Positions 1 through 12,684 of a stretch of DNA of 64,000 nucleotides are shown here, in pieces (position 1 is the first letter of the stretch; every line of letters starts with the position of its first letter). Below the pieces are notes generated by a model, which worked only from the letters and a program-made list of their open reading frames with translations, was not told the origin of the DNA and searched no databases. The stretch spans positions 1 through 64,000 of the forward strand of contig JACPIS010000021.1 of the NCBI GenBank assembly GCA_016187925.1. Reading direction: 5' to 3'. The position numbers and the translations under genes are program-made. The stretch is from Opitutia bacterium. Lineage in GTDB: Bacteria > Verrucomicrobiota > Verrucomicrobiia > Opitutales > Opitutaceae.

Positions 1-617
<617 letters not shown>

Positions 618-659
618 GTCCGATGAGCCCGAGACCCTCCAGTCTCAGCTAAAACTTCG

Positions 660-2212: not shown

Positions 2213-2529
2213 GCGTGCACGCGCCGGTCTTCCGGTCTATGTTCTTCGGGCTCCAGTCGCAGTCTGCGGTGCTCGGTCGTCTGACTCCCGGTCGTCTTCG
2301 CCGCCCGAAAAAACCAGCGCAAGGCCTCGCGCACTGGGCCCGTGCGCAAGCGCTCCTGTTTTTCGACATACTGCTTGGCCAGCAAGACGGTGGCCGGAGC
2401 ATGCTGCGTTTTGCAGTGTTTCAGAAAAGTGATGACCTCACGGGTGTAGGCCACCTCGCCAGCGCTGCTCAGGCCGGCCTTCGCCAAAGCCTGCTTCCAA
2501 TCGGGAAATGATACGGGCCGGTTGTCCAT
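2212..2529 (-). pseudogene. Truncated integron-type tyrosine recombinase (IntI-like), N-terminal SAM-like domain only
   Basis: MDNRPVSFPDWKQALAKAGLSSAGEVAYTREVITFLKHCKTQHAPATVLLAKQYVEKQERLRTGPVREALRWFFRAAKTT resembles the N-terminal domain of integron integrases; the catalytic domain is absent and the ORF runs into repeat copy 1. Divergent from the cassette array, as expected for intI. Confidence 0.6.
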
Positions 2530-2702
2530 CACGCGGCCCGTGTGTCCAGTCGAGTTGAGCTTTACGCCGGTAAAAATCAACGCGCAAAAAACTCAACCGG
2601 CAAAAATCGAGTGTTGATTTCCAGCGGCTTATCGAGCCTCATTCGCTCGCGGGCCACAATGTTGTTATCATCAACTCAGTTGAGCTGAATATACTGATCG
2701 CC
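2530..2702. promoter_or_regulatory. Putative attI/Pc region between integrase remnant and first cassette
   Basis: Lies between the divergent integrase start and core GATCGCC (2696-2702). Contains direct AGTTGAGCT repeats (2553-2561, 2678-2686), palindrome TCAACT-C-AGTTGA (2671-2683), and TATACT (2690-2695) abutting the core. Confidence 0.45.
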
Positions 2703-2714
2703 GGAAGAAAGCAG

Positions 2715-3152
2715 ATGCCAGCGCACGCCTCCAGAATTCCCGAACTTCGTCCGCTATCGGAGCAAGAGCGCACGCTGCTTCGCTGGATGGTCGAGCAAAA
2801 TTCGGGTGTCGGTTCGGACTTATTGGCACAGCTTGATCACGCGACGGTCGCCGCTCGGTGCGGTTGTGGATGTGCGAGCATCGATCTCGCCGTCGATGGC
2901 GCTGAAGAAGACAAGAAAGAGCCCATGGATTTGATCGGGGATTACGCGTGGAGGACGAAAGCCGGCAATTTGTGCGGTGCCTATTTGTTCACGCGTCGAG
3001 GTCATCTCGCCGGTCTTGATCTGTGGAGCATCGATGGCGCAGAGACGCCGTCCGCACTGCCAGCGATTGAATCGCTCTCCGCGTTTGCTCACGTTCAGAA
3101 GGGCGATCCAGCCGGCACAGACAACTCCGGGGCTGCGCCCCGTCGTGTCTGA
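2715..3152 (+). CDS. Cassette 1 hypothetical protein (145 aa)
   Basis: Single ORF of cassette 1; ends inside attC1. CGCGCASIDLAVDG and GHLAGLDLWSIDGAE segments. Confidence 0.75.
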   Translation: MPAHASRIPELRPLSEQERTLLRWMVEQNSGVGSDLLAQLDHATVAARCGCGCASIDLAVDGAEEDKKEPMDLIGDYAWRTKAGNLCGAYLFTRRGHLAGLDLWSIDGAETPSALPAIESLSAFAHVQKGDPAGTDNSGAAPRRV

Positions 3153-3167
3153 CCTCAATCGTTCGGC
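3102..3167 (+). repeat. attC1 recombination site (66 bp)
   Basis: R'' GGCGATC ... R' GTTCGGC; stem CAGACA-A-CTCCGGGGC / GCCCCGTCG-TGTCTG with an unpaired A and two mismatches. Confidence 0.8.
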
Positions 3168-3174
3168 AAAAGAT

Positions 3175-3591
3175 ATGCCCAAATCTCCAAAGCCAAAGTT
3201 CTGGTCGGGTGCGAGTCTACGCATACATGATGCGCCCGAACTGCACGACGAGATCAGCGCACGACTTGGCCCGCCATCAGCGTCCCACAAGAAAGGAGAG
3301 CTGCGTTCACCGACATCCAAGCGTCCATGGCCAAACGATATTTGGATGAAGGATTCCCCGTTGCCAGAAAGACGAGACATTGGTGAGCACCTTGCGTGGA
3401 TTGCGAAGTTCGCGCGACCACACTCTGCATATTTGCGACGGCTTATTCGCCGCGGCGCACGCATAGATATTTATCTGAGTTACCGCTGCGACCATGATCA
3501 TTGCGGCATTGGCCTTGCCCCGGAGCATCTGGAGATTTTTACCCGCCTCGGGATTCGCATGGAAGTTTCCATTCTGACGGATGACCTCTAG
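3175..3591 (+). CDS. Cassette 2 protein, DUF4279-like
   Basis: MPKSPKPKFWSGASLRIHD...DIWMKDSPLPERRDIGEHLAWIAKFARPHSAYLRRLIRRGARIDIYLSY...GIGLAPEHLEIFTRLGIRMEVSIL; layout resembles DUF4279 proteins. Confidence 0.65.
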   Translation: MPKSPKPKFWSGASLRIHDAPELHDEISARLGPPSASHKKGELRSPTSKRPWPNDIWMKDSPLPERRDIGEHLAWIAKFARPHSAYLRRLIRRGARIDIYLSYRCDHDHCGIGLAPEHLEIFTRLGIRMEVSILTDDL

Positions 3592-3606
3592 CGAAGAAGC
3601 AAGGAG

Positions 3607-3673
3607 GCCGAACAAGCGGCCAGAGCCAATGGCGGTGCTGCGCACCGCCATGGCTCATCACTGAACGTTCGGC
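3607..3673 (+). repeat. attC2 recombination site (67 bp)
   Basis: R'' GCCGAAC ... R' GTTCGGC perfect inverted; GAGCCA-A-TGGCGGTGC / TGC / GCACCGCCA-TGGCTC with one extrahelical A. Confidence 0.9.
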
Positions 3674-3693
3674 GGAAAATAGGAACCCTCCCC

Positions 3694-4146
3694 ATGTCTA
3701 TCGCATTATTCGTATCGGTCCTCCTGAACCTGATCGTCGCAGGTCTTGTTCTCTACTTTAAGGAGAGCATCAAGGCCGTCGTCGATTATCGGAAGAAGAA
3801 GGCGCTTGCCGACTATCAGATGGATTTGGAGGAGCTTGCCGCGAGAAGAAGGAAAGCGCAGTTGGTGGCTGAGTTGTTTTCCCGTCGCTTTAACAAGCCG
3901 GACGAAGTGTATGAATTCGAAAAGCTGAATTGGGAGCTGGCGCTAGTTTTGCCGAAAGATTTGGTCTGCCTGATCACGACGAAGCTCGTAGAGAAGAACG
4001 ACAAGTTTTCAGCGATGGAAGTTCTCGTCGCGATCCGCGAGCGCCTCGGCATTAAGGATGGGCTCGAGGCGCAGAATATCGCCTACACGAAATTAGGAGA
4101 GAGCCGAACCAAACCGCCAGAGAACAACGCGCGGGATGTGACCTAA
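3694..4146 (+). CDS. Cassette 3 hypothetical protein with N-terminal TM helix (150 aa)
   Basis: MSIALFVSVLLNLIVAGLVLYFKESIK...; ORF enters attC3 (RTKPPENNARDVT). Confidence 0.7.
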   Translation: MSIALFVSVLLNLIVAGLVLYFKESIKAVVDYRKKKALADYQMDLEELAARRRKAQLVAELFSRRFNKPDEVYEFEKLNWELALVLPKDLVCLITTKLVEKNDKFSAMEVLVAIRERLGIKDGLEAQNIAYTKLGESRTKPPENNARDVT

Positions 4147-4237
4147 ATCGTATGTGCCTTCTCCGCTCAGCATTTTCCGTAGCTCAAAAGGGCTCACTCC
4201 ACGCTCGCCCGCGCGTGTCTCATCGGTAGCGATCGGC
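4103..4237 (+). repeat. attC3 recombination site (135 bp, long class)
   Basis: R'' GCCGAAC ... R' GATCGGC; CGCGCGGG / CCCGCGCG stem with long apical region; near-identical to attC4. Confidence 0.8.
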
Positions 4238-4242
4238 GGAAG

Positions 4243-4557
4243 ATGAAAGCAGGCACAAGAGTTCAATTGCAGACCTTTGATGGCATGGCCGCTTCAAAGA
4301 AGAAGGTGCTAGCAGCCGAAGACTATTGGCGTTTGGTTGGCCGGGCCGGCGCCGTTGTAGATTCGCCGGAAGAGAGGAGCGCTTTCCCGGATGCTGGTCC
4401 TGACGCTCGTGTGTGCGTTCGCTTTGACGACGATCTGAAGGCATTGGGCCTCGAAGCTCACAATCGAATCCCGAATAGTTTGTGGGTCCGAACATCCGAT
4501 CTCAGTTCGCAGAAGAGAGCCGATCCAGACCGCCAGAGAACAACGCGCGGGATGTGA
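4243..4557 (+). CDS. Cassette 4 hypothetical protein (104 aa)
   Basis: MKAGTRVQLQTFDGMAASKKKVLAAEDYWRLVGRAGAVV...; ORF ends inside attC4. Confidence 0.65.
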   Translation: MKAGTRVQLQTFDGMAASKKKVLAAEDYWRLVGRAGAVVDSPEERSAFPDAGPDARVCVRFDDDLKALGLEAHNRIPNSLWVRTSDLSSQKRADPDRQRTTRGM

Positions 4558-4653
4558 CCTAAATCGTATGCTCCATCTCCGCTCAGCATTTTCCGCAGTT
4601 CAAAAGGGCTCACTCCACGCTCGCCCGCGCGTGTCTCATCGGTGACGATCGGC
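4519..4653 (+). repeat. attC4 recombination site (135 bp, long class)
   Basis: R'' GCCGATC ... R' GATCGGC; near-duplicate of attC3. Confidence 0.85.
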
Positions 4654-4662
4654 GGAAGAAAG

Positions 4663-5070
4663 ATGAAGATCTCGAAGATTGTTTACTGGTTGGCGCTTGC
4701 CTGTCTCGGCTACTACACGGTCCGCAGCGTCATCGTTGGCGGTTCCGGAATGATCGTCGGTCGTGTGCTCGCCATCGCGCTCTGGTCATTCCTCACATGG
4801 ATGCTGTTCCGCCGGCCGAAGGCATGGGGCTTGGGTGTCGGCATCTTCATGCTTCTTACCGTCGCCATTCAGCTTGGACTTTGGCGGCTGGCAGTGACTA
4901 GCCCGAAGAAAGAGGAGCTAGGTTTGGACGATAGCTGGCTTTCATTCGGATCGTCGGTTTCCCCGCTGATCCTCGGCGGCATATTTAGCATCAGCCTCCG
5001 TTGGCTGGCTCCCCAAGAGGCCGATCCAGCCGGCACAGACAACGACCGGGCTGCGCCCGGTCGTGTCTGA
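4663..5070 (+). CDS. Cassette 5 hypothetical multi-TM membrane protein
   Basis: MKISKIVYWLALACLGYYTVRSVIVGG...; starts 10 bp after R' and ends inside attC5. Confidence 0.7.
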   Translation: MKISKIVYWLALACLGYYTVRSVIVGGSGMIVGRVLAIALWSFLTWMLFRRPKAWGLGVGIFMLLTVAIQLGLWRLAVTSPKKEELGLDDSWLSFGSSVSPLILGGIFSISLRWLAPQEADPAGTDNDRAAPGRV

Positions 5071-5085
5071 CCTCAGTCGATCGGC
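5020..5085 (+). repeat. attC5 recombination site (66 bp)
   Basis: R'' GCCGATC ... R' GATCGGC; CAGACA-A-CGACCGGGC / TGC / GCCCGGTCG-TGTCTG with one extrahelical A. Confidence 0.9.
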
Positions 5086-5090
5086 GGAAG

Positions 5091-5567
5091 ATGAATTGCA
5101 TTCCGATACTCATCGTAGCCCTTGCCGCGCTTCCTGCGTGCTCAAAGAAAGAAGCACCGACCGAGGCGGTGGTCAGAAATGAGGATCCTCCATTTTTCGT
5201 TAATCCCAAGTTCACTGGCGGTCCATCGGTGATGACGGCCGCTCGCAAAATTTTCCCAGAAAGTAGTCAGATCGACCTGCGGGACTTTTGGACGAGCGCC
5301 GATGGCACCCACGAATTCGTGGTTTTCTTCGTAGGTCGGGAAATCAAAGGAGGGTTTGAGGGCATGTATTGGCGCTATCTGGCATTCGCTAAGAAGAAGA
5401 GCGACCGAGATTGGGCTAGTGCTCGAATTTTCGACTTACCCGATAATCGCTTCGGGCCGCTTGATCGTTCGCTGGCGTGGCTTGAGCAGAATGCGAAAGA
5501 GCTGAAAGCGCCGATCCAGATGTCAGAGCCAACGTCCGGGCTGGCGCCCGGACGTGGCTCACCATAG
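5091..5567 (+). CDS. Cassette 6 hypothetical lipoprotein
   Basis: MNCIPILIVALAALPACSKKEAPTE... lipobox-like LPAC; ORF ends inside attC6. Confidence 0.7.
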   Translation: MNCIPILIVALAALPACSKKEAPTEAVVRNEDPPFFVNPKFTGGPSVMTAARKIFPESSQIDLRDFWTSADGTHEFVVFFVGREIKGGFEGMYWRYLAFAKKKSDRDWASARIFDLPDNRFGPLDRSLAWLEQNAKELKAPIQMSEPTSGLAPGRGSP

Positions 5568-5576
5568 ACGATCGGC
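5510..5576 (+). repeat. attC6 recombination site (67 bp)
   Basis: R'' GCCGATC ... R' GATCGGC; GAGCCA-A-CGTCCGGGC / TGGC / GCCCGGACG-TGGCTC. Confidence 0.9.
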
Positions 5577-5585
5577 GGAAGAAAG

Positions 5586-5927
5586 ATGAAGATGCTGCGC
5601 TCACTCGTAGGAGATCAGTTCGCGAAGGAGGTCCATCTGGATCGCCCTCCGCGGACCATTGGTGAGCGCGTGTTTCGCTTCTCGGTCTATTTTTTCATCG
5701 TGAGCAGTATCCTTGGCGGATTGGCCGAGTTTGCAGGTGTCGATAAGAAGATTGGCGAAAGCATGGGATTCCTGATGTGGCCTTTCTCGGTGCTGTTCAT
5801 GTTTTCGTTCATTTACATGCTGGCCTTCGCCTATGTTCGGTATGTCCGTCCTCAGAAAGTCCGGCGGTCTAGTGATTCGTCCGTAAGCGGAGAGCCGATC
5901 CAGTCAGCCACAGACCAACGCCCTTGA
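5586..5927 (+). CDS. Cassette 7 hypothetical membrane protein (113 aa)
   Basis: Two predicted TM segments; preceded by GATCGGC-GGAAGAAAG-ATG. Confidence 0.7.
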   Translation: MKMLRSLVGDQFAKEVHLDRPPRTIGERVFRFSVYFFIVSSILGGLAEFAGVDKKIGESMGFLMWPFSVLFMFSFIYMLAFAYVRYVRPQKVRRSSDSSVSGEPIQSATDQRP

Positions 5928-6002
5928 TCTCACCTGAATCGCTGATGATATCTTCGCTCAACATGGCCCAGTTATTCAAAAGAGACGGCTCGCCCGCCCG
6001 GC
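5894..6002 (+). repeat. attC7, truncated long-class site
   Basis: R'' GCCGATC (5894-5900), then sequence collinear with attC3/4 interior (ACCTgAATCG...ATCTtCGCTCA...AGTTatTCAAAAG...GCTCGCCCG) ending abruptly at repeat copy 2, with no R' core. Confidence 0.7.
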
Positions 6003-6165
6003 GGAAACTGAAAACGGGTCAGGCCGCGGATGTTGATGTTCCAGCCGCGTTGGGCCAGGTCGGATCGACCCGGACAGTCGAAGCGCGGAACCGGGAGTTG
6101 GCGGAGCGGACCGATCTCGTCACAGAGCGTACCGAGATGGCGCAGTGTCCACCGAGATCATCCTC
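6002..6165. repeat. Dispersed direct repeat, copy 2 (partial, about 160 bp)
   Basis: ggaaactgaaaacgggtcaggccgcggatgttgatgttccagccgcgttgggccagg...cgatctcgtcacagagcgtaccgag as in copy 1, then divergence. Confidence 0.9.
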
Positions 6166-6266: not shown

Positions 6267-6566
6267 CTATTCGTGCCGGCCGGTCCAGTAGAGTGGGTGC
6301 CGCTTGCTGTGGCTGATGGACAGAATTTCCAATTCTTCGCCGGCGATCTTTTCCCAATAGTAGAAAGCGTAGGGGAAGCGGCGGAGCAGCCCTCGGCGGA
6401 CATCTTGATCGATCACCCGCCAGCGATGGGGAAATTGCCGCAGGTCGGCGACCGCTTCGTCCACCGCAGCGATGAAATCCGCGCCCAGGCCCGGGCGCTG
6501 GTTTTCGTGGTAACAGGCGGCCTCGGAGAATTCCCGCTCCGCTTCGGGATGCAGGACAACCCTCAT
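6267..6566 (-). CDS. RelE/ParE family toxin
   Basis: MRVVLHPEAEREFSEAACYHENQRPGLGADFIAAVDEAVADLRQFPHRWRVIDQDVRRGLLRRFPYAFYYW...ILSISHSKRHPLYW, classic ParE/RelE layout. Confidence 0.9.
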   Translation of the reverse strand: MRVVLHPEAEREFSEAACYHENQRPGLGADFIAAVDEAVADLRQFPHRWRVIDQDVRRGLLRRFPYAFYYWEKIAGEELEILSISHSKRHPLYWTGRHE

Positions 6567-6793
6567 CGTGCCGGGTTCAGCGCGGCCCGGGCGGCGGCTT
6601 GCGCCTGCTCGTAGGGACGGCTGACCACTTGGCCCGTGGTGGATTGCTTTTTGCGTTCAAGCGCGACTTGCAGCGCCGGATCCTCCCGCTCGGCTTTGAG
6701 CATAAAGGCGGAAACCTCGGCGAAGCCCTCCGGGGGCAGGCCCTTGATTTCGGCGATGATCTCGGCGGCTTTCATGGCGGGAACATCATCCAC
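6563..6793 (-). CDS. Cognate antitoxin of the ParE/RelE module
   Basis: 76 aa ORF overlapping the toxin start by 4 bp, same strand, upstream. Confidence 0.75.
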   Translation of the reverse strand: MDDVPAMKAAEIIAEIKGLPPEGFAEVSAFMLKAEREDPALQVALERKKQSTTGQVVSRPYEQAQAAARAALNPAR

Positions 6794-6827
6794 CGCGCCC
6801 GGAAAATCAACCCCGCTTTGGGCCCAG

Positions 6828-7170
6828 AAAACAGGTCAGGCCGCGGATGGTGATGTCCCGGGCGCGTTGAGCCCGGTCGGATCGACCCGGACAGTCGAAG
6901 CGCGGAACCGGGAGTTGGCGGAGCGGACCGATCTCGTCACAGAGCGCACCGAGGGGCACAGAGTCCACCGAGTCGAACCCCCGTGCGCTCTCGGTTTCTA
7001 CTTTCGTGTCGTTCGTGTGTTTTGTGGTGGCCACTGGCTCGTCGGAACCAGCCGACTTGCCCTGCCTTGGGGTTTCATCCGTGTCCCTCCGTGCAATCCG
7101 CGGGCAAGAAGATTTGAGGCGAATCGTCCGATCTTGGTCGAGGAGCGGGGTCACTTCGGCAGGGCGTCCA
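6828..7170. repeat. Dispersed direct repeat, copy 3 (about 343 bp)
   Basis: Collinear with copy 1 including terminal ggggtcacttcggcagggcgtcca. Confidence 0.9.
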
Positions 7171-7726
7171 TCGCTTCGCGCCAGAATTCGCGGAACTTCC
7201 GCAGGCGGTCCTTCTTTTCCTGATCGAGGTTGGGGTCGTTGAGCTGCAGGTCGAGGCACTCCATCAGGCGCGGGTCCGTCGCCTTGAGGTCGTCCTTCAG
7301 CGTGCGGAGCAGGTCTTCGACCGGCTCCCGCAGGTTTGGCGGCACTTTGCCGAACAGCCCCGTGGCCGACGTGCCGCCCTTGCCCGGCCCGAAGAGGCCG
7401 TTGCCCGTCGCGTCGATCATCTGCTCGATGGCGTGCAGTTTTTCCATGAAGCCGAGGATCGCGTCGGCGCTGCACTCGCCGAGTTGCAAACCGTGCTTGA
7501 GCTCTTGGAACGCGTTGACGACTCCGACGGCGGCCTGCCCCACGCCCACGGCGCGGCGGGCCGATTCCTCCACGGCCTTCTTCGTTTGCTCGGCGGATTT
7601 TTTGCTGTCGGGCGCGCAGGCGAACATCGCCACGACCAAGGCGATCAGCGCGATGACGATGGCCAGTTCGACCAGACCAAAGCCGCGGTTGGAGGCCAGG
7701 CGGCGGGAAACGGTGGGAGTTTTCAT
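7151..7726 (-). CDS. Hypothetical protein with type IV pilin-like N-terminus
   Basis: MKTPTVSRRLASNRGFGLVELAIVIALIALVVAMFACAP: GFGLVELAIVIALIAL resembles a prepilin peptide. Confidence 0.6.
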   Translation of the reverse strand: MKTPTVSRRLASNRGFGLVELAIVIALIALVVAMFACAPDSKKSAEQTKKAVEESARRAVGVGQAAVGVVNAFQELKHGLQLGECSADAILGFMEKLHAIEQMIDATGNGLFGPGKGGTSATGLFGKVPPNLREPVEDLLRTLKDDLKATDPRLMECLDLQLNDPNLDQEKKDRLRKFREFWREAMDALPK

Positions 7727-7734
7727 GTCGTGGT

Positions 7735-8838
7735 TCAGGGGAGAGAAATGTCCGCCCAGACGCAGGCGTGGTCGGAGGCTTCGTTCTGCGGGCCGGTGAC
7801 CTGCGAGAAGTGCGCCTCGTTTTTCACCAGCATGCCGCGGCGCTCGATGCCGACGGCCTGGATGGCGGCGAAGACCGGGTCGGACACGAGCAGGTAGTCG
7901 AGCTGCTGCTTGCCGCTGTGGTAGGTCCAGCGCGGCTGGTTCGCAAAACCGGCCCAATCGAACACGTCGTGCAGGCGCGGCACGGCGAGCAGCGGCTTCA
8001 GCGAGGCGTTCTTCGGGTCGGCGTTGAAGTCGCCCGCGACCACCACCCAGTCCTTCTTCAGATCGTAGCGGGCGAGGATCTCGCGCACGCGCGTCGTCTG
8101 CTTGAGGCGGCGGGCGTCGTTGCCCTGCGGCGTGCCGTAGCCCTGGCTCTTGAAGTGGTTGGCGAGCCACCAGAGCGTCTTGTTGCCGGGCAGGGCGATC
8201 TCGTACTCGGGGCAGTCGCGGCTGAAGATCGTGTGCGCATGGCCGGCCTTGTCCTTGTAACTGTCGTCCACGTGGCTGCGCACCGAGCGGATTTCGTGGC
8301 GGCTGTAGAGCCCGACGTCGATGCCGCGCGGGTCGTTGCCGTCGACGAGCAGCGTGTGCGGGAAATCGCCATGCTGCGGCTTGAGCACCTGGTCGTTGAA
8401 ACGCTCCAGCGCCGGCCGGCTCTCGGCCTCGACCACGCCGAGGAGGTCGGCCTGCACGGCGGCGATGACACGGCCGGTGTTGCGCGTCGCCTCGTCGTCC
8501 ACGCTCTCGCTCGTGAGTTCGACCCAGCCGATCCAGTCGCCGCGGCCCGCCACTTTCAGGCTGAGAACCTTCTGTTTGCTGACCGAGAAGAGTTTTCCCT
8601 TGGCCTGGTTCAGGTCGAACCACGGGTTGCCCTTGCCGCTGGCGAAACCGTATTTCGTGAGCAGGGCGACGATGGCCTGGCCGGTCGACCCGGTGTAGTT
8701 GTCGCGGGCGAGCAGAGTGGTGAGCTGGTCGATGTCTTCGAGGACCGGCTTGGCTTCGGCGGAAAATCCGGCGAGCTGCAGGAGCTTGGGCCGGCGGAAC
8801 AGATTGTTCAGGTTGTACGTGGCGATGCGCAGTTTCAT
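7735..8838 (-). CDS. Endonuclease/exonuclease/phosphatase family protein
   Basis: MKLRIATYNLNNLFR... NDPRGIDVGLYSRHEI ... VVVAGDFNADP ... NEASDHACVWADI. Confidence 0.85.
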   Translation of the reverse strand: MKLRIATYNLNNLFRRPKLLQLAGFSAEAKPVLEDIDQLTTLLARDNYTGSTGQAIVALLTKYGFASGKGNPWFDLNQAKGKLFSVSKQKVLSLKVAGRGDWIGWVELTSESVDDEATRNTGRVIAAVQADLLGVVEAESRPALERFNDQVLKPQHGDFPHTLLVDGNDPRGIDVGLYSRHEIRSVRSHVDDSYKDKAGHAHTIFSRDCPEYEIALPGNKTLWWLANHFKSQGYGTPQGNDARRLKQTTRVREILARYDLKKDWVVVAGDFNADPKNASLKPLLAVPRLHDVFDWAGFANQPRWTYHSGKQQLDYLLVSDPVFAAIQAVGIERRGMLVKNEAHFSQVTGPQNEASDHACVWADISLP

Positions 8839-9048
8839 GGCGTGGGGAGGGGAGGGCGCGAGTATAGCGCCTGGAGCCCCTCGACCGAGCGGGCGAATCA
8901 CCTGAAATTAGGTCGTGGGCCTTGGCTGCGGCCGTTCGCCGGGCGCTGCAGCCCCGGTGCGCTGAGCGGTTGGCCTTTTGAGTCGACGCCGTTTGACGCG
9001 CGGCTAGCGTCCGCCCGTTGCCCGGGGCCAGGGCAGAAGAAAGGCCCC

Positions 9049-10893
9049 ATGAAACCCACGATGTCTCGCGCGCTGTTCGGCGCGCTTCTTTTCAGCGTCG
9101 CGTTCGCCGCGGCATTGCCCGCCCAGGAACGTCTCACGCCGGAGCAGGCCCGCGGCCGGGCGGAGTCGCTCCGCGCGGAGATCGCGCACCACGACGAACT
9201 CTACTTCAAGCGATCCGCCCCGGAGATCAGCGATGCCGCCTACGACCGGTTGAAGCGCGAGCTTGCGGCGCTGGAGCGGGAGTATTCCGCGCTGGCCACC
9301 GGCGATGCGGCGCCGGGCGACGACCGCACGGGCGGTTTCCCCACGCTGCGGCACCGCACCCGCATGCTCGGGCTCGCCAAGACCTACACCGAGGCGGAGC
9401 TGCGCGCCTTCCTCGCGCAGGCGCGGCGGCAGGCGGGCGCCGCGGCGGTCGGCTTTGTCATCGAACCGAAGTTCGACGGTCTCGCCATCAGCGTCACCTA
9501 TGAACGCGGGCAACTCGTGCGCGCCGTCACGCGCGGCGACGGCACCGAGGGCGATGACGTGACGGCGAACTTTCTCGCGCTGTGCGCCGTGCCGCGCCGT
9601 CTGGCATCCGCGGTGGCCGTGCCGGAGGTCATCGAGCTGCGCGGGGAAGTCTTCATGACCTACGCCGAGTTCCGGCGCATCAACGCCGAGGCGGCGGCTG
9701 CGGGCGGCGAGCCGTTCGCCCATCCGCGCAATCTCGCCGCGGGCACGCTGAAGCAGCAAGCGGCCGGCAGTCCGCACCGGCAGTTGGAGGTGGTTTTCTA
9801 CGGCTGGGGCGCCGTCGAACCGGCGGCGCTCGCGCCCGCGTCGCAACAGGACTTGCACCGGCTGATCCGCGCGTGGGGCCTGCCCGGAGTGGAGGACGCC
9901 CGCCTGGGCGAAACCGACGACGCCGTCTGGCGGGCCGTGCAGGAGTTCGGCGCGAAGCGGGCCAAATGGCCGTTTCCGACCGACGGGGCGGTGGTGAAGG
10001 TCGATGCGGTCGCGCTGCGCAGCCGCTTGGGCGAGACCGGCGATGTGCCGCGCTGGGCCGTCGCCTACAAGTTTCCACCCGACCAAGCCGTCACCCGGGT
10101 GCTCGGCATCACCTTGCAGATCGGCCGCACCGGTGCGCTCACGCCGGTGGCGGAGCTCGAGCCGGTGAAGCTCGGCGGCTCCGTGATCCGGCGTGTGTCG
10201 CTGCACAATCGCGACGAGATCGCCCGGCGCGACATCCGGGTCGGCGATTTTGTCCGCATCGAGAAAGCCGGGGAGATCATTCCCGCCGTCGTCGGCGTGG
10301 ACAAAGACCGGCGTCCGTCCGGCGCGGGCCCGTTTGTGTTTCCCGTGGAATGTCCGTCCTGCCGCACGCGGCTGGCCGCGGAGGCCGGGGTGAGCGCGGT
10401 GCGCTGTCCGAACCGCGCGTGCCCGGCGCAGGTGCAGCGGCGACTCGAATACTTCGCGTCAGATGATTGCGCCGACCTGGCGGGCTTCGGCCCGGGCGTG
10501 ATTGCGAAGCTGGTCGACCAACGGCTGGTTCGCGAGCCGGCCGATCTGTTCGGACTGGAGCCGGCCCGCTTGAAGACGACGGTCGGCGAGAAAACGGCGG
10601 CCAAACTGCTCGCGGCGGCGGCGCAGGGGCGCGCCCGCGAGCATTGGCGCTTCGTCCTCGGGCTCGGGGTCGCCGGGGTGGGGCCGGCGTCGGCGAAGGC
10701 GGTGGCCCGGCGTTTTCCCGACCTCGCGGCGCTGTCGCAGGCGGCGACGGCGGACTGGCTCGATGCATCCGGGGCGAGCTCGCGCGTGCCCGGGCTCAGC
10801 GACGAGGCCGCGCGCGCCTGGGCGGAGTTTCTGGCGGTGCCCGACAATCGGGCGACTGTGGAGCGCCTGCATGCCGCGATCCATATCCGCTGA
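9049..10893 (+). CDS. ligA: NAD-dependent DNA ligase with N-terminal signal-like peptide, apparently lacking BRCT
   Basis: EPKFDGLAISVTYERG (KxDG), GDGTEGDDVTANF, Zn-finger CPSCRTRL...CPNRACPAQ, HhH region; begins MKPTMSRALFGALLFSVAFAAALPAQERL; ends at ATVERLHAAIHIR. Confidence 0.9.
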   Translation: MKPTMSRALFGALLFSVAFAAALPAQERLTPEQARGRAESLRAEIAHHDELYFKRSAPEISDAAYDRLKRELAALEREYSALATGDAAPGDDRTGGFPTLRHRTRMLGLAKTYTEAELRAFLAQARRQAGAAAVGFVIEPKFDGLAISVTYERGQLVRAVTRGDGTEGDDVTANFLALCAVPRRLASAVAVPEVIELRGEVFMTYAEFRRINAEAAAAGGEPFAHPRNLAAGTLKQQAAGSPHRQLEVVFYGWGAVEPAALAPASQQDLHRLIRAWGLPGVEDARLGETDDAVWRAVQEFGAKRAKWPFPTDGAVVKVDAVALRSRLGETGDVPRWAVAYKFPPDQAVTRVLGITLQIGRTGALTPVAELEPVKLGGSVIRRVSLHNRDEIARRDIRVGDFVRIEKAGEIIPAVVGVDKDRRPSGAGPFVFPVECPSCRTRLAAEAGVSAVRCPNRACPAQVQRRLEYFASDDCADLAGFGPGVIAKLVDQRLVREPADLFGLEPARLKTTVGEKTAAKLLAAAAQGRAREHWRFVLGLGVAGVGPASAKAVARRFPDLAALSQAATADWLDASGASSRVPGLSDEAARAWAEFLAVPDNRATVERLHAAIHIR

Positions 10894-10938
10894 CGAAGCG
10901 GGCTGGCGCTGGCGCCGGGTTTCGTTTTCTCTGGAGGC

Positions 10939-11727
10939 ATGGAAGTCGTCTTTCTCGGCACGGGCACGTCGCAGGGCGTGCCGATGATCGCCTGCAATTG
11001 CGCGGTCTGCACCTCCGCCGACGCGCGCAACCGGCGCACGCGGGCGAGCATCCATGTCGTGATGGACGGCCTGCACGTGCAGGTCGACGCCACGCCGGAA
11101 TTCCGGGTCCAGTGCCTGAGGGAGAAGATCGAGCAGCTCGACGTCTTCATCCTGACACACGGTCACGCCGATCACATCACCGGCATGGACGACCTCCGGC
11201 GCTTCTGCGACCTGATCGGCGGCCAGGCGCTGACGGTTTACACGACCGATGAAGGCAAGGCGCGCGTGTTGTCGGTTTTCCCCTACACGATCGCCGAGCG
11301 TCCGGTCTCGAAGGGCTACGCCGCTTTCAAGCTCGCCGACATGCCGCCCGCGCTCGAATTTCCGCAGGGCACCATCCGCTCCACGCTGCTGCCCCACGGC
11401 GGCATCAACACGCTCGGGCTGGTCTTCGAAGAGCGGTCGTCGGGGAAAAAGTTCGTCTATTACAACGACTGCAAGTGCGTGCCGCCCGAAGCCGTCGCGC
11501 TGGCCAAGGCCGCCGAGGTTGTCGTGCTCGACGGCCTGCGGGTCGAGCCGCACCCGTCGCACATGAACATCGCGGAAGCGTGCGCCGCCGCGACCGAGAT
11601 CGGCGCGCCGACGACCTACCTCACGCACCTCACGCACGGCGTCGACCATGAGACGTGGAGCCGTCGACTCGCCACTGAGCATCCGGGCGTGCTGCTCGCC
11701 TACGACGGCCTGCGCCTGAAGCTCTAG
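10939..11727 (+). CDS. MBL-fold metallohydrolase (PhnP-like)
   Basis: FLGTGTSQGVP...C-x-C-x2-C and LTHGHADHITGMDDLRR. Confidence 0.85.
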   Translation: MEVVFLGTGTSQGVPMIACNCAVCTSADARNRRTRASIHVVMDGLHVQVDATPEFRVQCLREKIEQLDVFILTHGHADHITGMDDLRRFCDLIGGQALTVYTTDEGKARVLSVFPYTIAERPVSKGYAAFKLADMPPALEFPQGTIRSTLLPHGGINTLGLVFEERSSGKKFVYYNDCKCVPPEAVALAKAAEVVVLDGLRVEPHPSHMNIAEACAAATEIGAPTTYLTHLTHGVDHETWSRRLATEHPGVLLAYDGLRLKL

Positions 11728-11792
11728 CCGGTCCGGATTGTTTCATTCACCGTGGGTCCGATACCGCGGAGATCGTTCCGGCTTGGTCTCGT

Positions 11793-11870
11793 TGTAGGAG
11801 CCTGCTGGCAGGCGATAGGGGACGCGCGCCGACGGATCGTGCGCTGAATCGCCTGCAAGCAGGCTCCTAC
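11793..11870. repeat. REP-like inverted repeat
   Basis: gtaggagcctgctggcaggcgat ... atcgcctgcaagcaggctcctac. Confidence 0.85.
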
Positions 11871-12076
11871 AAATATGAAAACAAGGGGAGGCAAGTTGAG
11901 ATGGCGCGGGTTCGATCCAATGCCCCGGAGATATTTACGGAGACGCGGCGCCCCCGCTGCGTTTTCACTTGGAAACCGGGATGGGGGCGTCCCGGCTCCA
12001 GTCGCTTCCTCGCGTACCAGCCTCGGTTTGCGTCATATCTAACCGAAGGAAGAAAAGTCGCTTGCTTAATTCCCAC

Positions 12077-12093
12077 TAATCTAATGTAGATTA
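12077..12093. promoter_or_regulatory. Putative operator palindrome upstream of the Rrf2 regulator
   Basis: TAATCTA-ATG-TAGATTA, perfect 7-bp arms, 16 bp before the start codon. Confidence 0.5.
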
Positions 12094-12108
12094 AGCCAGT
12101 ATCCGTAT

Positions 12109-12684
12109 ATGAAGCTCTCCAAACGCGGCGAATACGCCCTCCGCTCGCTGATCAACCTCGGCATCGCCGCCAAGGTCCAGCGACCGCTCTTGCGCGTGAC
12201 GGAGCTCGCCAAGGCGGAGGACCTGCCGGTCAAGTTTCTGGAGCAGGTGATGCAGCAGCTCCGCGAGGCCGGTTTCGTGGAGAGCGTCCGCGGCAAGCAC
12301 GGCGGCTACCGCCTCGCCCAGCCCGCGGCCAAGATCACCATCGGCGCGGTCGTGCGGCTGATCGATGGCCCGCTGGCGCCCATCGGCTGCGTCAGCCAGA
12401 CCGCCTACGAGCCGTGCAACTGCCCGGACGAGGCGCATTGCGGCCTGCGTATGCTCATGCTCGACGTGCGCAACGCCATCGCCGCCATCCTCGACCGCTA
12501 CACGCTCGCCGACGTCGTCGAGGTGACCACGCGCAAGCTGACCACCAGCGGCCTGCCGCTGCCGTTCAGCCAGCCGGCCGCGGTGCCCGCCGTCCGTCGC
12601 CCGCGCACCGCCGGCGCGCGCAAGCCTTTCACCAGTCCCACCGAAGGGGTCGTCCACCAACTTCTCGGAGATTACGCCATATGA
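12109..12684 (+). CDS. Rrf2 family transcriptional regulator (IscR/CymR-like)
   Basis: MKLSKRGEYALRSLINLG...GKHGGYRLAQP; cysteine-rich C...PCNCPDEAHC. Confidence 0.9.
   Translation: MKLSKRGEYALRSLINLGIAAKVQRPLLRVTELAKAEDLPVKFLEQVMQQLREAGFVESVRGKHGGYRLAQPAAKITIGAVVRLIDGPLAPIGCVSQTAYEPCNCPDEAHCGLRMLMLDVRNAIAAILDRYTLADVVEVTTRKLTTSGLPLPFSQPAAVPAVRRPRTAGARKPFTSPTEGVVHQLLGDYAI

Follow-up and report, generated by a model that had tools for sequence, protein, structure and literature searches.

Is a run of small genes in an Opitutaceae chromosome an integron?

We analysed a 64,000-nucleotide stretch of DNA from an Opitutia bacterium (hereafter the window), in which seven small co-oriented ORFs are separated by repeats that resemble attC sites. 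The locus raises the question of whether these units are genuine recombined cassettes and, if so, what became of the integron that collected them and which core bases its integrase accepted. An earlier note, made from the letters of the window, had placed a relic chromosomal integron at 2696-6002. The cassettes do lie there, but the true start of the element had been missed, as an intI stub (2281-2529) and attI (about 2555-2696) lie outside that range. We conclude that the locus at 2281-6004 is an integron remnant in an Opitutaceae chromosome, from a genus near Candidatus Didemnitutus. It is made up of a divergent N-terminal intI stub, an attI, and seven cassettes with six complete attC sites and one that lacks its 3' end.

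The integrase gene is reduced to its N-terminal domain

The intI stub lies on the minus strand and encodes the first 83 residues of an integron integrase of roughly 445-460 aa. Its reading frame extends to 2116, inside a local repeat. The stub is 71% identical to the full-length IntI of a genome of the same genus (G116, L007). Against TIGR02249, the integron integrase model of NCBIfam, this IntI reaches 365 bits over residues 135-443 only, and this whole region is absent from the stub. Other relatives of about 445-460 aa likewise lie far above the model's cut-off. Because the model matches the relatives only from residue 135, the stub represents the extra N-terminal domain without any catalytic part. 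With the catalytic domain and the IntI-specific patch missing and 83 N-terminal residues left, the locus is a remnant rather than a complete integron. A TIGR02249 search of the whole genome found no integron integrase above the cut-off. Since a local repeat also interrupts both ends of the element (see below), the term relic used in the earlier note is borne out.

The integrases of this group (L007, L018, L009 and the window stub) have about 130 additional residues at the N terminus, which include the conserved domain FPxWK...LRWFF. A fusion of about 120 aa in one integrase clade has been mentioned previously (PMC2426708). The stub domain is predicted to form four helices (pLDDT 85), and a search of solved structures with this model returned nothing significant, the top match being lambda integrase at a probability of 0.14.

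The attI on the plus strand is conserved with those of Didemnitutus, Opitutus and Lacunisphaera as far as TGAATATACTG. Because it is nearly identical to the attI of intact integrons up to that point and divergent beyond it, we placed the crossover after G2696. Further, 22 distinct attI-cassette junctions were alike through ACTG and then different, with 10 reading GAT and 12 reading GTT. These junctions show that the crossover falls after the first G, as the earlier note had proposed. Measured from the crossover, attI in the window and at L078, L081, L092, L009 and L084 also has short boxes at three positions of about -142, -105 (in inverted orientation) and -18 to -32. The box sequences vary among integrons (GTTGAGC, GTTCGGC, CTTACGC, GTGAGGT, CTTAGG) and agree within one attI; they might be recognised by the additional N-terminal domain of the integrase.

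A local repeat interrupts both ends of the element

Three copies of the local repeat, all on the plus strand, surround the remnant. The left copy (1856-2215) interrupts intI, meeting the stub at about 2215. A partial copy (5999-6156, 96% identity) interrupts the seventh attC, and the right copy (6827-7173, 95% identity) includes the 3' end of a neighbouring gene (7154-7724, minus strand). Long matches to the repeat occur at three places in the genome only, all of them local. Of the seven attC-like sites that had been described, six are complete and the seventh is not. The attC7 remnant (5894-6004, plus strand) retains R'', L'' and the loop, whereas L' and R' are gone; about 111 of 135 nt are kept, and the site breaks off inside the flanking repeat at about 6000-6005. 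It resembles an intact 135-nt attC from a second array of the same genome up to CCCGGCGG. With this intact sister site on contig C5 as the reference, the loss is limited to about the last 26 nt.

The second array is itself an integron remnant (L167, about 7950-12400 on the minus strand of C5). An attI-like end, AATAACACTG, precedes a GAT core there, and an integrase was not found at this locus. One of its attC sites contains a DEDD-type transposase gene, IS110-like when read by eye. In the window, two copies of the local repeat flank a ParE-like toxin gene and a small upstream partner gene (6267-6793, minus strand).

In a genome of the same genus (G096), groEL adjoins the downstream genes seen here, and no integron separates them. 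When the 3' end of groEL (window 1-620) was compared with this relative (L231), homology ended at 473 and restarted at 480, an interval that spans about 76 bases in the relative. The gene is normally essential, and the gap appears to reflect either a deletion or an error of assembly.

The attC sites fold and covary

The complete attC sites all lie on the plus strand: attC1 at 3102-3167 (66 nt), attC2 at 3607-3673 (67 nt), attC3 at 4103-4237 (135 nt, with a long terminal loop), attC4 at 4519-4653 (135 nt), attC5 at 5020-5085 (66 nt) and attC6 at 5510-5576 (67 nt). Single-strand folding gave R and L stems plus one extrahelical base at a constant place in the L'' arm. The fold was far better than that of shuffled sequences for attC2, attC5 and attC6 (z = -4.5, -4.8 and -7.3), whereas the gain over shuffled sequences was small for attC1, attC3 and attC4 (z from -1.3 to -0.2). 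When 25 sites, drawn from the window and from relatives, were aligned, pairing held in 92.7% of cells, and we counted 73 compensatory two-sided changes compared with 28.7 after shuffling; a slide of one base abolished the structure. A covariance model recovered all six complete sites. The scores were 74.7, 82.3, 86.4 and 82.7 bits for attC1, attC2, attC5 and attC6, and 40.7 bits (E = 4e-9) and 44.2 bits (E = 4e-10) for attC3 and attC4, both of which were outside the training set. The sites are thus accepted as attC by folding and by a covariance model, the latter among the checks that the earlier note had suggested, and its refuting outcome, rejection of every site, did not occur. Across the family, an extrahelical A occupied the same position in 431 of 435 sites.

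The locus therefore has an attI with a defined crossover and sites with attC boxes, an extrahelical base and a variable terminal structure, the seventh truncated. A search of the window against Rfam gave no match. Pfam, NCBIfam and PADLOC matched only DUF4279 in ORF 2 and the ParE-like gene outside the array, and a promoter scan across the array gave no signal above chance.

Each cassette carries a core that matches its own R'' box

We read the 5' cores directly as GATCGCC at 2696, GTTCGGC at 3161 and 3667, and GATCGGC at 4231, 4647, 5079 and 5570. The R'' boxes are GGCGATC at 3102, GCCGAAC at 3607 and 4103, and GCCGATC at 4519, 5020, 5510 and 5894. This reading confirmed the earlier observation that each 5' core is the reverse complement of the R'' box of its own cassette (7/7), compared with 4/6 for R'' and the next core. 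When labels were permuted at their ratio of 1:2:4, the full match was one arrangement in 105, which for the window array alone is suggestive evidence, short of overwhelming. The strongest local evidence comes from attC3 and attC4. These sites are 93% identical across 149 nt, yet their R'' boxes differ (GAAC vs GATC), and the difference tracks their own 5' cores, located some 290 to 440 bases away.

For a family-wide comparison, an initial loose hairpin scan was dropped because it was noisy in GC-rich DNA. We used instead a profile finder built in two halves, which masked the second core base together with its partner in R'' (478 matches vs 1 in a reversed-sequence control at score 22). The survey set comprised 435 non-redundant sites in 92 Opitutaceae-type arrays, a few of these loci being named relatives outside Opitutaceae; the genomes are mostly metagenome assemblies in which arrays often stop at contig ends. 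An exact match between R'' and the cassette's own core was found in 282 of 342 cassettes (102 expected and a maximum of 128 upon shuffling within arrays), and R'' matched the core of the following cassette in 74. The core and R'' triplets were concordant in 315 of 325 cassettes, compared with 257 after shuffling. About 18% of the cassettes had no exact seven-base match to their own core, likely because of missed sites or mutation.

These results support the earlier claim that core variants move with the cassette. Since it is already established that crossover occurs between G and TT and that the core bases past the crossover derive from the cassette itself (PMC3518468), this argument is good evidence without being new. 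Taken together, folding, the covariance model, the attI junctions and family-wide core/R'' matching support genuine recombined cassettes over a chance run of repeats, and a matched core/R'' pair offers a simple sequence test for such cassettes.

GAT looks like a second cleavage triplet in Opitutaceae integrons

The three bases at the cut have been described as the sole conserved sequence of attC sites (PMC5371416), and the integron core as GTTRRRY, with GNT or GAT mentioned for secondary sites only (PMC3518468, PMC10127599, PMC8024014). The window departs from GTTRRRY / RYYYAAC: five of seven 5' cores begin with GAT, and the two GTTCGGC cores break RRRY at the first R. The earlier note had not flagged GAT at these five cores against the supposedly conserved GTT. 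In the survey, 339 of the 435 cores were GTT and 81, about a fifth, were GAT. GAT occurred in 13 of the 25 genera with sites and in 42 of 88 cassettes of the window's own genus. A scan blind to the second base found GAT in 55 of 224 GAT or GTT cores from Opitutaceae and in 0 of 46 from outside (Fisher p = 1e-5); at the laxest threshold, two GAT matches appeared outside Opitutaceae, the same number as in the reversed control. In the literature, where our coverage was incomplete, GAT did not turn up as a regular attC core, which is absence of evidence only.

Classic tyrosine recombinases require matching bases in the overlap, and GAT and GTT could by that logic form separate compatibility classes, each recombining within itself and possibly served by its own integrase. 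GAT is indeed commoner in some attC subtypes, the long subtype having 37 GAT and 19 GTT cores. However, within arrays GAT cassettes neighboured one another 24 times against 21.7 +/- 2.5 expected, which is random mixing with GTT, and a single conserved attI type carries either triplet. On the neighbour statistics we rejected separate classes, which we consider improbable.

It is slightly less probable still that GAT is decayed GTT, a non-working triplet that arose by mutation in dead arrays and whose match to R'' was inherited. Two points would fit decay: the array in the window is a relic whose integrase has lost its catalytic part, and GTT has been described as the main triplet of IntI1 in cells (PMC8024014). 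In contrast, GAT also stands next to attI itself, where the newest cassette lies, and some of these junctions adjoin full-length integrases (L081, L089, L092). The triplet also stays paired: where a GAT core had AAC or ATC in R'', it was ATC in 59 of 61. Further, decay would also yield GCT and GGT, which are rare (2 each among the 435).

We favour a working GAT triplet over both alternatives. From its position and its neighbours, we infer that the family's integrases recombine GAT, which looks like a natural second cleavage triplet in Opitutaceae integrons. These integrases probably cut and join GAT as readily as GTT, with the signature G-A/T-T, and the second base would be a neutral, cassette-borne allele that marks insertions.

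The cassettes have no conserved gene order

Cassette 1 (2697-3161) contains ORF 1 (2715-3152, 145 aa), cassette 2 (3162-3667) ORF 2 (3178-3591, 137 aa, DUF4279), cassette 3 (3668-4231) an ORF at 3694-4146 (150 aa), and cassette 4 (4232-4647) an ORF at 4243-4557 (104 aa). Cassette 5 (4648-5079) encodes a membrane protein (4663-5070, 135 aa), cassette 6 (5080-5570) a protein with a lipoprotein-like start (5091-5567, 158 aa), and the 3'-truncated cassette 7 (5571-6004) a protein of 113 aa (5586-5927); all are on the plus strand. Six of the seven ORFs run into their own attC, and unrelated proteins thus share C-terminal tails such as ADPAGTDN (window 2715-5927). In all arrays, A and G dominate the six bases that follow the core (most commonly GGAAGA), and an ATG most often starts 5-10 bases past the core, as though each cassette came with a ribosome-binding site of its own.

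A search for the same cassettes elsewhere, as the earlier note had advised, found relatives of ORF 1 in eight family genomes; in at least two of these, G034 and G080, which belong to other genera, they are cassettes beside attC. The mobility of the cassettes is thus seen both in the own core/R'' pair of all seven and in the different neighbourhoods of the cassette 1 relatives. ORF 2 had no relatives in 149 other family genomes, and the remaining ORFs matched the fetched arrays through attC-encoded tails only. There is therefore no fixed gene order to conserve, and the fetched arrays held no shared order of the seven ORFs; a fixed order in relatives was the outcome that the earlier note had named as pointing to an operon. 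An ordinary operon whose genes are separated by recurring hairpins (terminators or REP-like elements, for instance) would account for seven small co-oriented ORFs with short spacers, but the attI junctions and the survey of arrays across the family already refute it and leave it almost no probability: attI and an integrase stub are present, the hairpins are asymmetric with a fixed extrahelical base, cores match R'', and cassette relatives occur in other contexts.

A model for the origin of the remnant

In our model, an integrase related to those intact in sister species would have inserted circular cassettes at attI. The folded bottom strand would have been cut after the first core base; a bottom-strand substrate is suggested by the structure, as in other integrons. 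With the crossover at this base, each cassette arrived with the final six bases of its core and the R'' that matches them. Given the distribution of the triplets, the integrases of the family probably accept both GTT and GAT, with GAT as a cassette-borne allele interchangeable at attI and between attC sites. Most of intI and the 3' end of cassette 7 were probably lost later, in a rearrangement through the local repeat; the truncations themselves are plain. The whole locus is very probably best explained as a sedentary integron remnant with own-core cassettes, a repeat-driven truncation, and acceptance of both triplets.

The new part is the variant core triplet, and the element is otherwise of a known kind. 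A cut-site base that freely takes two values offers a natural way to study what the integrase recognises there and whether a match between the exchanged bases is required. Further, attC finders tuned to GTT may under-score a good part of verrucomicrobial cassettes.

Comparison with known systems

Like sedentary chromosomal integrons, such as that of Vibrio cholerae, the locus has a divergent intI, an attI, promoterless small ORFs with attC, and a crossover after the first core base. It differs in that intI is a stub, that the native relatives of the integrase carry an extra N-terminal domain of about 100 aa, and that GAT and GTT cores occur together. Like a CALIN (Cury et al., described in PMC8618304, PMC9024848), it has at least two attC sites, six of them complete, and no recognisable integrase nearby, as the Pfam and NCBIfam profiles miss the stub. 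Unlike a CALIN, it still has attI together with 83 codons from the start of intI, and its origin as a true integron is therefore directly visible. Finally, the secondary (GNT) sites of IntI1 share GAT-type triplets and a relaxed second base (PMC3518468, PMC10127599); IntI1 is reported to place a lax constraint on the second base of the triplet and to cut GAT in such sites (PMC10127599). Those sites are rare, low-frequency off-targets, whereas GAT here belongs to proper attC cores with an ATC-paired R'', makes up about a fifth of the sites, and is found at attI too.
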